From Pycnococcus provasolii (Eukaryota; Chlorophyta; Pseudoscourfieldiophyceae; Pseudoscourfieldiales; Pycnococcaceae): a stretch of DNA of 64,000 nucleotides. The notes beneath the pieces were generated by a model that was not told where the DNA came from, did not search any database, and saw only the letters and a program-made list of their open reading frames with translations. Positions 9,740 through 63,019 of the stretch are shown piece after piece. The position numbers and the translations under genes are program-made. The stretch covers positions 186,001 to 250,000 of the forward strand of contig OW568901.1 in assembly GCA_938743325.2 (NCBI GenBank), given 5' to 3'. Within the stretch, counting starts at the first letter, position 1. Every line of letters begins with the position of its first letter.

Positions 9740-11947
9740 ATTTGATGTTGTTGTTGTTGTTGTTGTTGTTGATGTTGCGTATTTCGAAGTAGAAGGAGGT
9801 GGTTGGACGAAGTTGTTTACCTTTACTTGACAACGCTGCAATGAGCTACTACGAGTTGCAGTTGCAGTTGATGCTGCTGCTGCTGCTGATGCTGATGCTG
9901 CGCCGTTGCTGCCGTTGCCAGTGTTCGACTGTTCCCTCCTCCTTCCAACTACTACTGTTGTCAGTGGAGGAGGAGGAGAAGTCGTGTTGGAACTTGAAGC
10001 AGCAGAGGAGTCGTCCAAACTCAAACTGCCCCAAGCGTGACGCGTCGTCGTCGTCGTGTATTGTATGATGCTTGCTCTCTGAGAGATTTCAGCTCCCAAG
10101 AAGTGTTGCTTGAGCGAGTGTTTCTTCACAAGACAAGCAACTGTTTCTTGCAGGAGTGTGTTTCTTTCACACCAAGCACGAGCACACTGCACACCAACAC
10201 GAGATTAAAGAGTTCTCACGAGCGAGACTCACAAGGTAAGCCAGCAAGTTAAGTTAAGGCCACCTCCCTGAGAGGACTCCAACAAGCTCCTTGCAAGAGA
10301 CGAGCAACAAGAGACTCGGTGATGGCCGGCCACGAGGTCCGCTTATCACAAGGACAGGCGAGCGAGAGGCACTTGTATGTAAGACGCACAAGCACAGCAC
10401 AGCACAGCACAGCCTTAGGGCAGGTGGGAATGAGCAACCCTGTGGGCGAGAATGAGCGATGAGAATATTTACCCGTTGGCAAACACACTCAGGACTGTCA
10501 GTGTAAGCTGTAGCTACAAGACTCGCACAAATGGCGACGCCGTTACTCGCCCGAGTGTTACAAGACTCGTGGGACCCGGCGACGCCGTTGCTCGCCCTTC
10601 TGCAGAATGAGCATTGAGCAGCCTTAAGAGAGCGGCGGTGCCTCCTCCAGAGAGCTTCTTGGATGGAGAACAACATTATTGATTGGGAACAACATTCTGC
10701 CGTTTCGTAACACCTCACTTTTACGTCGGCCTCTTTTTCGTTTCGATGAAACCGTTTCCAAGAACCCTAACGCCGCGCCACCTCCCCCTCCCCCTATTCT
10801 ATTTATGAGCCTCCGAGTTGTTTTTCAGGCTCGGACTGTCGGAGAGAGCGGTTAAAGCTCGTTTTACCTAATAACCGTTTTCTGCAACTGGTTCAAACGC
10901 TCATTCATGAACGACGGTACTATCGTAGTACGGTTTCTTTCCCACCAGTGCTGGTAGTGACCAGTGACTCAGTGACCAGTGACCAGTGACTCAGTGACCA
11001 GTGACTCAGTGAGGAGCTCCTCCTGAGTCCTGATGCCTGAGGCACCGAGGCTCTCTCCACTTCTCCATGGAGGAGGGATCATCGGAGGAGGATTCGCCTC
11101 GAGGCTCAACGGACGCCAGGATTCCCTCCTCCCACCTCCCTGAGAGAAGAAGAAGCTTTCGTCTTTGGTGTGGTAATAAATGCGATGCGTTATTGCGTTG
11201 CATGCCCATTCAAGTGGTTATTACAACGTCCTGTTAGGAGTTATTGTCGTGTTAGCCCCACGGTGAGGAAGGTGACGAACGCGAAGGATGAAATACGAGG
11301 GAAAGGGTACTGGAGGCTCATCCTGCAGCTCATCCCCACCTAGTTCTACTTTTTAGGCCAGGCACACAACAAATACACGCACACATCCCTTCCTTCTCAG
11401 CCCTTTTCCTCCTGCGACTGCGATGGATTTACATACATATTCTTACTGTAGCGGTGCCTGATCCTCGTCACTGAATCACAAAAGGCAACCTTCGTTCTTC
11501 CGCCTGTCCCTCATCAGAGAGCTCTCTCCATCACCACAGCCTCCCCACCATACTAAAACTGTAGGTAGAAGGCAAGGGGCAGGCGGGTGGTCGAACAGAG
11601 CTCTCGCCTCTCCTGAGAGGGAATAATAAAGGTAAAGGTTTATCGTAGCTCTCTCTCGCGCGCGCGCTTGACCTGACCAGATACATGGGCGCACCAGAAC
11701 CCGACCAGACTGCCCCCAGGTGCAAGGTCCGGTCCGTTCACGGGTAGGTACCAAGCCCTGCTGGAACCCGTAACCCTAACCCTAGCCCTAACCCTAACCG
11801 ATTGATTCTCGCCTTCGACGGCCCCGGCTCGTTGACGCGCCGGTTTGCCACGTCAACACGTTTTCGCAAACCGTTTTACCCAACACGTCGGACTGGTTTC
11901 ACCCCCCGGATTTTATATTCCGCGTTTTCGGATAAACACTGCTCCCC
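9740..11947. other. Long intergenic region with short tandem repeats
   Basis: About 2.2 kb between divergent genes. It contains a (TTG)n run at 9746-9770, CTGCTG-rich DNA at 9860-9900, (CACAG)n at about 10390-10410, and tandem copies of GTGACTCAGTGACCA at about 10960-11010. The ORFs in it give low-complexity or Cys/Ser-rich translations with no recognisable domain. A TAACCC array (11768-11800) precedes the next gene. Confidence 0.45.
11768..11800. repeat. Interstitial TTAGGG-type array upstream of the acyl-activating enzyme
   Basis: Five consecutive (T)AACCC-type units, one of them CTAGCCC, lying about 150 bp before the ATG at 11948. The same hexamer recurs in front of several other genes of the window. 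Confidence 0.8.
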
Positions 11948-26944: not shown

Positions 26945-27090
26945 AAACCCCGAATAGAACCCCGAATTGTCACTCCCCGAATGAGAATTCGAAGGAGAAG
27001 GAGAAGGAGAAGGAGAAGGAGAACTCACACATGCACCTATCGTAGGGAGGACATGGTTAGGGTTAGGGTTAGGGTTAGGGTTAGGGTTAT
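26945..27090. promoter_or_regulatory. Divergent promoter region with CCCCGAAT motifs and TTAGGG array
   Basis: Between the small ORF (-) and the RsmE gene (+). In order, it holds AAACCCCGAAT (26945 and 26958), a GAGAAG purine tract (26993-27021) and a run of about six TTAGGG units (27055-27090), which ends about 65 bp before the ATG at 27154. Function is inferred from the recurrence of the same elements before other genes. Confidence 0.5.
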
Positions 27091-45454: not shown

Positions 45455-46420
45455 ATGGTGGCGGCTGACATTGATGACCTTGGGGAGCACGCACCAGACA
45501 CCATTGAAGGCGTTGATTTGACGACGGACGTTCATTATCCAAACGATTCTCGGAGAGAATCGCCATGGGATGACGAAACAGGAACGCATGTCGAAGTGCT
45601 CCACGTATCTAGCCTACGCCCGGGTGAAATGTTCGCGCTCGTGGAGACCATCAAGAGCGACACGTGCACATTGCACACGCTGGACCTTGCCGGCAACGAC
45701 GTGGGTGCTGACGGCGCACGCGCGCTCGCGGAGGCTCTCAAGAGCGACACGTGCAACTTGCACGAGTTGTACCTTTCCGGCAATGGAGTGGGTGATGACG
45801 GCGCACGCGCGCTCGCCGAGGCCATCAAGAGAAAATCGTGCACCTTGCACACGCTGCGCCTTGGCAGGAACGAAGTGGGTGATGACGGCGCACGCGTGCT
45901 CGCGGAGGCGATGACGAGCGAGACGTGCACATTGCACACGCTGGACCTTCGCAGCAACGGAGTGGGTGCTGACGGCGCACGCGCGCTCGCCGAGGCCATC
46001 AAGAGCGAGAAGTGCACATTGCACACGCTGGACCTTGGCGGCAACGACGTGGGTGCTGACGGCGCACGCGCGCTCGCGGAGGCTCTGACGAGCGAGACGT
46101 GCACCTTGCACACGCTGAAGCTTTGCGTTAACGGAGTGGGTGCCGACGGCGCACGCGCGCTCGCGGAGGCGCTGAGGAGCGACAAGTGCACTTTGCACAC
46201 GTTGGACCTTCGCTACAACGGAGTGGGTGCTGACGTAGAACGAGACCTTGACGAAGCGCAGGCTATTTCCCGTGAACGTCGTCGCTGCCGTCATCACGGT
46301 TTGTTGCGCGCCATCGTGAGGCTCGCCATCCTGCGTAAGCGTGCCTGTGAAGCTGTGTTCCACCCCAAGCGTCTGCGTCGTGAGGGCGTATTCGACGCGT
46401 GGGCGCACGACTCGGGGTAA
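45455..46420 (+). CDS. RNI-type leucine-rich repeat protein
   Basis: 321 residues. After a ~65-residue N-terminus come seven consecutive 29-residue repeats (45656-46262) of the ribonuclease-inhibitor type (CTLHTLDLxxNxVGADGARA, then LAEAL). The DNA repeat has an exact 87-bp period with few changes, so repeat number may vary. The C-terminal 50 residues are basic and helical (RERRRCRHHG, LRAIVRLAILRKRACEAVF) and not repeat-like. LRRs of this kind bind proteins; partner unknown. The antisense strand is also open over 900 bp, which is a by-product of the repeat's codon pattern. Confidence 0.78.
   Translation: MVAADIDDLGEHAPDTIEGVDLTTDVHYPNDSRRESPWDDETGTHVEVLHVSSLRPGEMFALVETIKSDTCTLHTLDLAGNDVGADGARALAEALKSDTCNLHELYLSGNGVGDDGARALAEAIKRKSCTLHTLRLGRNEVGDDGARVLAEAMTSETCTLHTLDLRSNGVGADGARALAEAIKSEKCTLHTLDLGGNDVGADGARALAEALTSETCTLHTLKLCVNGVGADGARALAEALRSDKCTLHTLDLRYNGVGADVERDLDEAQAISRERRRCRHHGLLRAIVRLAILRKRACEAVFHPKRLRREGVFDAWAHDSG
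45656..46262. repeat. 87-bp tandem repeat array inside the LRR gene
   Basis: Seven in-frame units of 87 bp, starting AGC GAC/GAG ACG TGC and containing GACGGCGCACGCGCGCTCGC. Units 1, 4, 5 and 6 are the most alike. Confidence 0.85.
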
Positions 46421-57974: not shown

Positions 57975-58447
57975 CGAGTGGCTCACATACTATAATAGGA
58001 TAGCGCCGTTTTTTTTAAATATACATGTAACAAGACTACAGTTGTTGAACAAAATCTGTTTCCCCGTGGTTAGGGTATGGACAGGGTAGTACTAACTTGC
58101 TTTCTTTCCCCGTGGTGACGGAAAAGTCTCATTCTCCGTTCCCCTATCTAAGGTTGGCAATATTCTACGGAATGCGTATCAGCCATGGCGCTGGTGGGTT
58201 CGAGTAACAAGTAAAGAAGTGTAAAAGAAGAGAACGAAGTTACAATAGTAAATAGGGGTGGCCAAATACGCGCGTAATGTGTTTTCGAGCGCGTCATGAC
58301 GCGTCATGACGCGCTTGTCATGACGGTAAAGGCCTATTACGCGTCATCACGCAATTTCCGAAACCCCGAATCCGCCGCCGACTATTTTCATGGTGTTAAG
58401 GTGATTTCTGCTCATCCCCCGTTGTTTGGTCCCGTTATATGAACATT

Positions 58448-58534
58448 TAGGGTTACGGATAGGGTTACGCTAGGGTTACGGCGTTACGCTAGGGTTACGG
58501 ATTAGGGTTAGGGTTACAGGGTTAGGGTTAGGGA
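58448..58534. repeat. Degenerate TTAGGG/TTACGG array
   Basis: Mixed TTAGGG, TTACGG and GCTAGGG units over about 87 bp, ending TTAGGGTTAGGG. This is the most diverged of the telomere-like arrays in the window and is not near a gene start. Confidence 0.8.
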
Positions 58535-60908: not shown

Positions 60909-61232
60909 GACATTGTCCGCCCCTCCGTCGTGTTCCGCCTTGAGGAATTCTTTTGCAGTCTAAACTTGTTGTTGCGTCGACGCCGGCGGCAATAAGGTGC
61001 ACGGACGGCGAGGAGTTCACCACCATGCGCTCCCCAAGGACTAACACCGCAGTCCACATCTGACAAGGGCTCATGGATGACGCAAACGTGTTTTGGCGTC
61101 TTTCGCAGGCTGAAGATGGCTTGACGCGTGCGTGGCTGCGTGCGGAGAAAAAGACCAGGTCTTTGTTTATTAACTACGTCCTCCACGTCTGATCCATCAT
61201 CATAACTTGCCGTAGTTATACCATCGATCGCA

Positions 61233-61343
61233 AGCGTTTGACCTGGGTTCGATTCCCAGTGGAATCAGTACTGTACTGTATCAAAATTCAGACCCTCAGA
61301 ATAGAGAGGTTCTATAGCTCAATGGTAGAGTGGACGCCTTCCA
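61233..61343 (+). tRNA. Circularly permuted tRNA-Gly(UCC) gene
   Basis: The two tRNA halves are in reversed order. The 3' half (61233-61267) has anticodon-stem 3' strand GCGTT, variable loop TGAC, T-arm CTGGG TTCGATT CCCAG, acceptor 3' strand TGGAATC and discriminator A. A 40-nt spacer (61268-61307) follows. The 5' half (61308-61343) has acceptor GGTTCTA, T8 A9, D-stem GCTC / GAGT around AATGGTA, G26, anticodon-stem GACGC and loop CTTCCA. All seven acceptor pairs form (two G-U), as do all five anticodon-stem pairs (one G-U). Joining gives loop CTTCCAA, anticodon UCC, and a 71-nt tRNA without encoded CCA. A-box and B-box match consensus. A run of T's at 61360-61369 follows the 5' half, as expected for Pol III termination. 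Confidence 0.85.
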
Positions 61344-61359
61344 TAGGGAAGCTATCCAA

Positions 61360-61369
61360 TTTTTTTTTT
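61360..61369 (+). terminator. Pol III T-run after the permuted tRNA
   Basis: Ten consecutive T's beginning 17 nt after the 5' half of the permuted tRNA-Gly. Its position after the 5' half, and not after the 3' half, supports a single transcript covering both halves. Confidence 0.8.
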
Positions 61370-61386
61370 GCACTAAGATACCCTTT

Positions 61387-61474
61387 CTTCGTCGGACGAC
61401 GAAGAGGGCAGCCCTAACCCTAACCCTAACCCTTGGAGTAGGTGACCCTACTCCCGCTTCGTCGGACGACGGAG
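61387..61474. repeat. TTAGGG array between two hairpins and direct repeats
   Basis: CTTCGTCGGACGACGAAG (61387-61404) is an 8-bp perfect inverted repeat with loop GA. It recurs with one change at 61457-61474. Between them are three to four CCCTAA units (61412-61433) and a second perfect inverted repeat GGAGTAGG-TGAC-CCTACTCC (61435-61454). Confidence 0.8.
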
Positions 61475-62939: not shown

Positions 62940-62973
62940 AGGTTAGGGTTAGGGTTAGGGTTAGGGTTAGGGC
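62940..62973. repeat. Interstitial TTAGGG array in divergent promoter
   Basis: Five to six TTAGGG units between the kinase gene (-) and the gene at 63020 (+), about 50 bp before the latter's ATG. Confidence 0.85.
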
Positions 62974-63019
62974 TCGGGTCCCTCCCCTCCTCTCCTCTCC
63001 TCTCCTCTCGCCATATACC

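Follow-up and report, generated by a model that had tools for sequence, protein, structure and literature searches.

The 64,000-nucleotide stretch analysed here (the window, within which all positions below are counted unless another locus is named) lies on contig OW568901.1 (C41) of the Pycnococcus provasolii assembly. On its forward strand, at 61233-61343, is a transfer RNA (tRNA) gene for tRNA-Gly(UCC) whose parts stand in circularly permuted order, with the 3' half first, then a linker and then the 5' half. The features of the locus, all on the forward strand, are:

61169-61182, +: weak match, recovered by a motif search, to a candidate upstream element with the consensus ATATACTGTGTCAC; the least supported part of the locus
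61230, +: leader position -3, a G complementary to C32, giving an anticodon-intron-type pair at the junction (same complementarity in 14 of 17 permuted genes)
61233-61267, +: 3' half of tRNA-Gly(UCC), nucleotides 38-73, with discriminator A and no encoded CCA (sequence, covariance model match across 61233-61343, stem pairs)
61246-61256, +: B box GGTTCGATTCC in the T-arm, upstream of the A box (sequence)
61268-61307, +: 40-nt linker from nucleotide 73 to nucleotide 1, expected to be removed from a circular intermediate (sequence)
61308-61343, +: 5' half of tRNA-Gly(UCC), nucleotides 1-37 (sequence, covariance model match, stem pairs)
61315-61325, +: A box TAGCTCAATGG (sequence)
61340-61342, +: anticodon TCC, nucleotides 34-36 (ARAGORN on the joined halves)
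61344-61359, +: 16-nt trailer, whose GGAAG (61347-61351) is able to pair with CTTCC (61338-61342) in a local hairpin (sequence)
61360-61369, +: T10, a terminator of the RNA polymerase III type (sequence; a T-run of at least six follows the 5' half in all 17 permuted genes)

The first-pass annotation of this DNA had described a 3' half preceding the 5' half by 40 nt, seven of seven acceptor-stem pairs (two of them G-U), five of five anticodon-stem pairs (one G-U), A and B boxes at consensus, a ten-T terminator located only after the 5' half, and a break at 37/38. Each of these descriptions stands, and the permuted order, the Gly(UCC) identity and the 37/38 junction are confirmed by the sequence, the covariance model described below and the ARAGORN call of tRNA-Gly(tcc) on the joined halves. 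When joined, the halves form a 71-nt tRNA before addition of CCA, with 17 Watson-Crick and four G-U pairs and no mismatch among its 21 stem pairs, and all nine invariant-position checks, including U8, A14, the D-loop GG, U33 and the T-loop bases, agree with a canonical tRNA. The linker is without any run of five or more T. Because the 5' half and the leader both terminate in CA, any break point from 35/36 to 37/38 would yield an identical mature tRNA. The complementarity between GGAAG and CTTCC, which had also been pointed out, is real, but it is not the canonical intron-type signal; it amounts to a local trailer hairpin away from the standard anticodon-intron position, which in this gene would be that of C32 with G-3.

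Statistical support for the permuted arrangement was obtained with a covariance model trained on 14 further tRNAs from the same genome (12 organellar ones and the nuclear Tyr and Trp tRNAs), which were permuted in silico at 37/38, with the window gene itself excluded. This permuted-order model matched the locus with 45.9 bits (E=3.3e-16 in a search of 160,656 bases), with 21 of 21 pairs standard. A linear tRNA at 61233-61343 was considered and rejected, with neither an ARAGORN call nor an Rfam match at the gathering cut-off anywhere in the window, a silence that is to be expected of a permuted gene. The only Rfam signal at the locus was a sub-threshold match to YrlA (22.6 bits against a cut-off of 69), an RNA whose T-arm-then-D-arm order imitates that of a permuted tRNA. 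A DNA search of the 32.33-Mb, 46-contig assembly with the locus as query recovered only the locus itself; the assembly includes N stretches (24 kb of the plastid contig among them), so that the absence of a second copy is not absolute. Within the same limits no linear tRNA-Gly(UCC), which the annotation had named as the case that would speak against it, was found elsewhere. Nine joined permuted tRNAs used as DNA queries gave 28 matches, all at permuted loci, with full-length matches to the Gly halves confined to C41, while plant tRNA probes gave a single mitochondrial match in a DNA search that is insensitive to diverged tRNAs.

Across the assembly 19 distinct nuclear tRNA genes were found, 17 of them permuted at 37/38 and two (Tyr and Trp) linear with an intron at 37/38. 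Permutation thus prevails in the nuclear set recovered, which covers part of the tRNA identities; Asp, Glu, His, Gln, Cys, Asn, Ile, Pro and initiator Met were among those not found in these searches. The Rfam tRNA search, which assumes linear order (63 of 587 candidates scored), returned 27 matches above the cut-off, of which 24 lie on two organelle contigs and three are nuclear: Tyr(GUA) and Trp(CCA), the latter in two mirror copies. As read by eye, all three have a 37/38 intron of about 60 nt. One organelle contig has 24,277 bp and 16 ARAGORN tRNAs, and the other has 80,243 bp and open reading frames (ORFs) recognised as chlL, chlN and ycf4. The YrlA search (46 of 1164 candidates scored) gave six matches below the cut-off, which fall on two Lys(UUU) loci, two Met(CAU) loci, one Arg(CCU) locus and a plastid tandem; this model also gives sub-cut-off matches in 13 of 14 control genomes. 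On the permuted-order model the nuclear YrlA-matched loci scored 56-58 bits.

Further genes were recovered by searches for the D-arm that are blind to the order of the halves. At up to three mismatches the first pattern gave 24 hits against 49 in a backwards control, and a class II pattern 17 against 20; a third pattern stayed at background (127 against 131). Hits nowhere exceed the control at this threshold, and the weight lies in the low-mismatch hits and the structures surrounding them. Eighteen hits of the first pattern have at most two mismatches, three of them organellar and 15 nuclear; of the nuclear loci, which represent ten distinct genes (nine permuted), 14 are permuted, including two mirror copies (L062 and L063) for which the reading is confined to the surroundings of the D-arm, and one is linear. 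The class II pattern gave six hits with at most one mismatch, belonging to four distinct genes, with five loci permuted and the sixth a mirror copy of one of them. Three-mismatch hits contributed Arg(ACG) and Ser(AGA). The tally of 19 genes leaves out four nuclear three-mismatch hits of the first pattern, eight three-mismatch hits and two mirror copies of the class II pattern, and at least two two-mismatch hits together with the three-mismatch hits of the third pattern. ARAGORN recognised a tRNA in all 17 joined permuted genes, with the intended anticodon in 15 and, after the 37/38 junction had been reset, also in Leu(UAG) and Ser(AGA). Over these genes 349 of 357 stem pairs are standard, and five of the eight mismatches are the same D-stem G-A in Ser and Leu tRNAs. 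On the intact loci ARAGORN called no tRNA in the window, in L029-L030 or in L064-L068, and Rfam found none at E 0.01 in L052-L063.

Certain peculiarities of these genes may be recorded here. G1:U72 replaces G1:C72 in seven of the 17 permuted tRNAs. A permuted tRNA-Met(CAU) (L029 1556-1560, C9:7799 region) has CCA directly after the discriminator, a linker of only 5 nt and an unusual U37; no intron whose removal would eliminate this U37 was found by eye, and the Met(CAU) assignment is uncertain. The locus L061 was at one stage taken for a permuted Gly(CCC), when the covariance model accepted GTGAGTTCCCA as the anticodon arm, and was rejected as such since, once the flanks are included, the sequence is that of Arg(ACG) interrupted by an intron whose first bases are GTGAGT. 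Many tRNA loci form inverted duplicate pairs 3.6-8.3 kb apart (on C3, C7, C9, C15, C26 and C34), and same-strand tRNA pairs lie 3.5 and 6.2 kb apart on C11 and C13.

The junction at 37/38 shows what may be a signature of tRNA-type splicing. In ordinary pre-tRNAs the partner of base 32 is the intron base located three positions upstream of the 3' splice site. At the corresponding leader position -3, 14 of the 17 permuted genes have a base complementary to base 32 (ten C-G and four U-A), with 5.8 expected from leader composition (P=4e-5), and the two positions covary (column shuffle, P=0.017); other offsets from -1 to -10 complement base 32 in at most seven of the 17. Back-splicing at 37/38 by GT/AG signals was also considered and rejected, with a leader ending in AG in none of these genes. 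The genome encodes two genes with tRNA-endonuclease domains, in both of whose ORFs a Tyr-His-Lys set can be read that we take to be the expected motif, and one RtcB ligase gene (E=3.9e-162).

Seven permuted genes, those for Ala(CGC), Ala(AGC), Lys(CUU), Phe(GAA), Arg(ACG), Ser(GCU) and Ser(AGA), are additionally interrupted in the tRNA body, by 22 stretches of 69-80 nt in all; the window gene has none. All 22 have GT...AG ends, 15 start with GTAAGT or GTACGT, 18 end in CAG, and they are poor in G (11.9%). Their excision yields canonical tRNAs in all seven genes according to ARAGORN, with G3:U70 present in both Ala tRNAs, although the reading of Arg(ACG) needs a doubtful 3-nt exon. As the boundaries had been picked with GT-AG in mind, an independent check was made by sliding each cut at fixed tRNA length. 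At 11 of the 22 junctions the GT-AG cut was the unique best of 17-25 positions by tRNA pairing alone; at the remaining 11 several cuts tied or, twice, another cut was better by 0.5, and most of these junctions lie in unpaired regions, for which pairing gives no guidance. Between different tRNAs, two pairs of introns at different positions are 87% identical, which fits spreading intron copies. A U6-like gene (L072, about 1336-1585, on C34, with a mirror copy at L071) carries a 161-nt GT-AG intron directly after ACAGAGAA; this gene scores below the Rfam cut-off (32.4 bits against 44) and its 5' exon was read by eye. Its intron also contains a B-box-like GGGTTCAAATC.

By their sequence features the GT-AG introns of the seven sibling genes are most likely removed by the spliceosome. 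The alternative of tRNA-type introns, which the tRNA splicing endonuclease would excise with the spliceosome uninvolved, draws on the multiple non-canonical endonuclease-removed tRNA introns of Cyanidioschyzon given in the part of PMC3978253 concerned with that alga. A crude scan of the window's protein genes, in which GT-AG introns of such size were not in excess over control patterns, likewise offers no local messenger RNA (mRNA) model for them. Against it stand the GT...AG ends, which are without exception and mostly extended to GTAAGT or GTACGT and to CAG, the selection of that boundary by pairing itself at half of the junctions, and the lack of AG at the ends of the leaders at 37/38; the U6-like gene, with its GT-AG intron, points in the same direction. 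Removal of these stretches by the endonuclease is therefore regarded as unlikely. The broader proposal, which seems probable from the sequences, is that most nuclear tRNA genes of P. provasolii are permuted, that many of their transcripts would be handled by two splicing systems, the spliceosome removing up to five GT-AG introns from the tRNA body (with internal exons as small as 6 nt, or perhaps 3 nt) before endonuclease and ligase circularise the RNA at 37/38, and that the tRNA genes would serve as hosts of spreading introner-like spliceosomal introns.

With the A and B boxes in the wrong order, transcription of the Gly(UCC) gene probably leans on upstream sequence. A candidate motif near ATATACTGTGTCAC emerged from the pooled upstream regions of 20 genes (17 permuted, two linear and the U6-like one), reaching 12.7 bits with 60 starts, and 11.2-12.7 bits in five runs of 10 starts versus 9.5-10.3 bits in 12 shuffles, likewise of 10 starts. 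At the other end, the T-run of at least six lies within 1-83 nt after the 5' half. These observations would fit transcription from a promoter upstream of the genes, independent of the A/B-box order, as proposed for Cyanidioschyzon in the relevant section of PMC3978253. A search for Tau95/TFIIIC gave no match, but the controls were equally silent. A separate leader element near GGGGATACCGGTTC (core GGATACC) is shared by Met, Lys(UUU), Arg(CCU), Thr, Ser(UGA) and Leu(UAG), six of the 12 permuted genes whose leaders were listed, and in the linear tRNA-Tyr gene (C11; L025 1570-1589) the 37/38 intron has a second B-box-like GGGTTTCGACCC followed by GTAAGT.

Taken together, these features make it very probable that a functional nuclear gene for tRNA-Gly(UCC), in circularly permuted form, lies at 61233-61343. 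Several observations weigh against this conclusion. Unconstrained minimum-energy folding of the gene is no better than that of shuffles (z -0.50 for the core and -1.03 with flanks). A strict bulge-helix-bulge (BHB), with a 4-bp helix of 32-35 with leader -3 to -6, is absent from the window gene, in which only 32:-3 pairs. Leader position -3 is nearly always a purine, so that the constant U33 is matched as well, in 15 of the 17 genes; position 32 is favoured only by the change of -3 along with base 32 (C to G, U to A; the column shuffle given above). The upstream element is weak at the window gene and in several other members, and the linkers of Thr(UGU) and Ser(UGA) hold a T7 and a T6 respectively, which is awkward for a continuous RNA polymerase III transcript. 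Finally, tandem linear organelle tRNAs reach up to 41.9 bits on the permuted-order model as false permuted pairs.

This last point lends itself to the idea that the halves are dead remnants of a tandem tRNA duplication, in which the 5' half of the first copy and the 3' half of the second have decayed and the pairing is inherited rather than maintained. A tandem pair with decayed ends would indeed produce this order. The tandem artefact as seen in the organelles does not apply to the window gene, since no outer halves exist there and pairing is complete in the two joined stems. Moreover, remnants would hardly keep all 21 pairs and all nine invariant positions intact, no other copy was found, T10 follows the 5' half, and 17 distinct genes have this layout, with the 32:-3 complementarity present in 14; this origin accordingly appears very improbable. 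An assembly error or inversion concealing halves in normal order is more improbable still, for although several sibling loci are inverted duplicate pairs of a kind able to trouble assembly, here both halves lie on one strand around a 40-nt linker with the terminator after the 5' half, and a mis-join would hardly yield a 37/38-compatible break 17 times over, in every case with a run of T downstream of the 5' half.

For a working permuted gene the following course of processing may be envisaged. RNA polymerase III would transcribe leader, 3' half, linker, 5' half and trailer as one RNA, in which the two halves would fold together. The tRNA splicing endonuclease would then cut at 37/38, treating the leader and trailer as the two ends of an intron, and a ligase, for which the encoded RtcB is a candidate, would close the circle. 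RNase P and RNase Z would cut the 40-nt linker out of this circle, and CCA would be added to the mature tRNA. In the seven intron-bearing siblings the spliceosome would presumably act first, followed by circularisation and then by RNase P and RNase Z.

Among other features of the window are short telomere-like (TTAGGG/CCCTAA) repeats at 11765-11799, 27055-27089, 58447-58533, about 61412-61434 and 62941-62979, all outside ORFs of at least 250 aa; one of the repeats begins about 45 bp past the tRNA terminator. An 87-bp tandem repeat of 6.9 copies occupies 45634-46235 within an ORF.

The arrangement is reminiscent of permuted tRNA genes of other algae. As far as the table of PMC3978253 extends (to 2014), 34 permuted tRNA genes were listed, 19 of them in four green algae, with none for Gly and none from Pycnococcus; the suggestion of the first-pass annotation that Gly(UCC) may be new for the lineage agrees with this table. 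The permuted genes tabulated there for Ostreococcus and Micromonas, mostly of type II with a 37/38 junction, share the half order and junction seen here, and the 40-bp linker falls inside their range of 11-64 bp. For green algae that table holds 19 genes over four species and a sole intron not described there as GT-AG, whereas 17 distinct permuted genes, most of the nuclear tRNA genes found, occur here in one genome. According to the sections of the same paper on Cyanidioschyzon merolae, 11 of its 43 tRNA genes are permuted and 34 of the 43 are disrupted, so that, as among the genes found here, most nuclear tRNA genes are disrupted and permuted ones may carry further introns. An upstream TATA-like element is proposed there to drive transcription. 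The extra introns of C. merolae are described as BHB-mediated with varied junctions; in P. provasolii, in contrast, all 17 junctions fit 37/38 and the introns are GT-AG stretches of 69-80 nt. The fission yeast U6 small nuclear RNA gene has an mRNA-type intron (PMC10484740, in the portion dealing with it), as does the U6-like gene here with its GT-AG intron, but here such introns are found in tRNA genes in addition. In the green alga Auxenochlorella the tRNAscan-SE set was incomplete and permuted genes were detected afterwards; the account of them in PMC12633428 mentions no GT-AG introns. The assembly of P. provasolii CCAP190/2 is described as 32.2 Mb in 44 chromosomes with a mitochondrion of 24.3 kb and a plastid of 80.2 kb (PMC11130579), and the main text of that genome paper, in its accessible form, is without the words "tRNA", "intron" or "permuted". 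Among the open-licence papers listed by the searches no report was found of permuted tRNA genes in Pycnococcus, nor of spliceosomal introns in tRNA genes, the latter including the accessible portions of PMC11782384, PMC12730881, PMC13149111 and PMC9602550.

The window gene itself adds a member to the permuted tRNA family, and its novelty is one of setting: most of the nuclear tRNA genes found are permuted, and GT-AG introns lie inside permuted genes. Permuted tRNA genes have so far been treated as rare, to judge from the list in PMC3978253. If permutation is the rule, protein synthesis in this alga would depend on circular RNA intermediates. The GT-AG introns in tRNA genes, if truly spliceosomal, would break the textbook division in which spliceosomal introns belong to mRNAs and endonuclease-cut introns to tRNAs. 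They raise the question of how splicing might proceed when exons are tiny and the RNA polymerase III transcripts short, and whether independence of an internal A/B-box promoter permits both permutation and intron invasion. As such genes are missed by ARAGORN and Rfam, other algal genomes may conceal the same arrangement.
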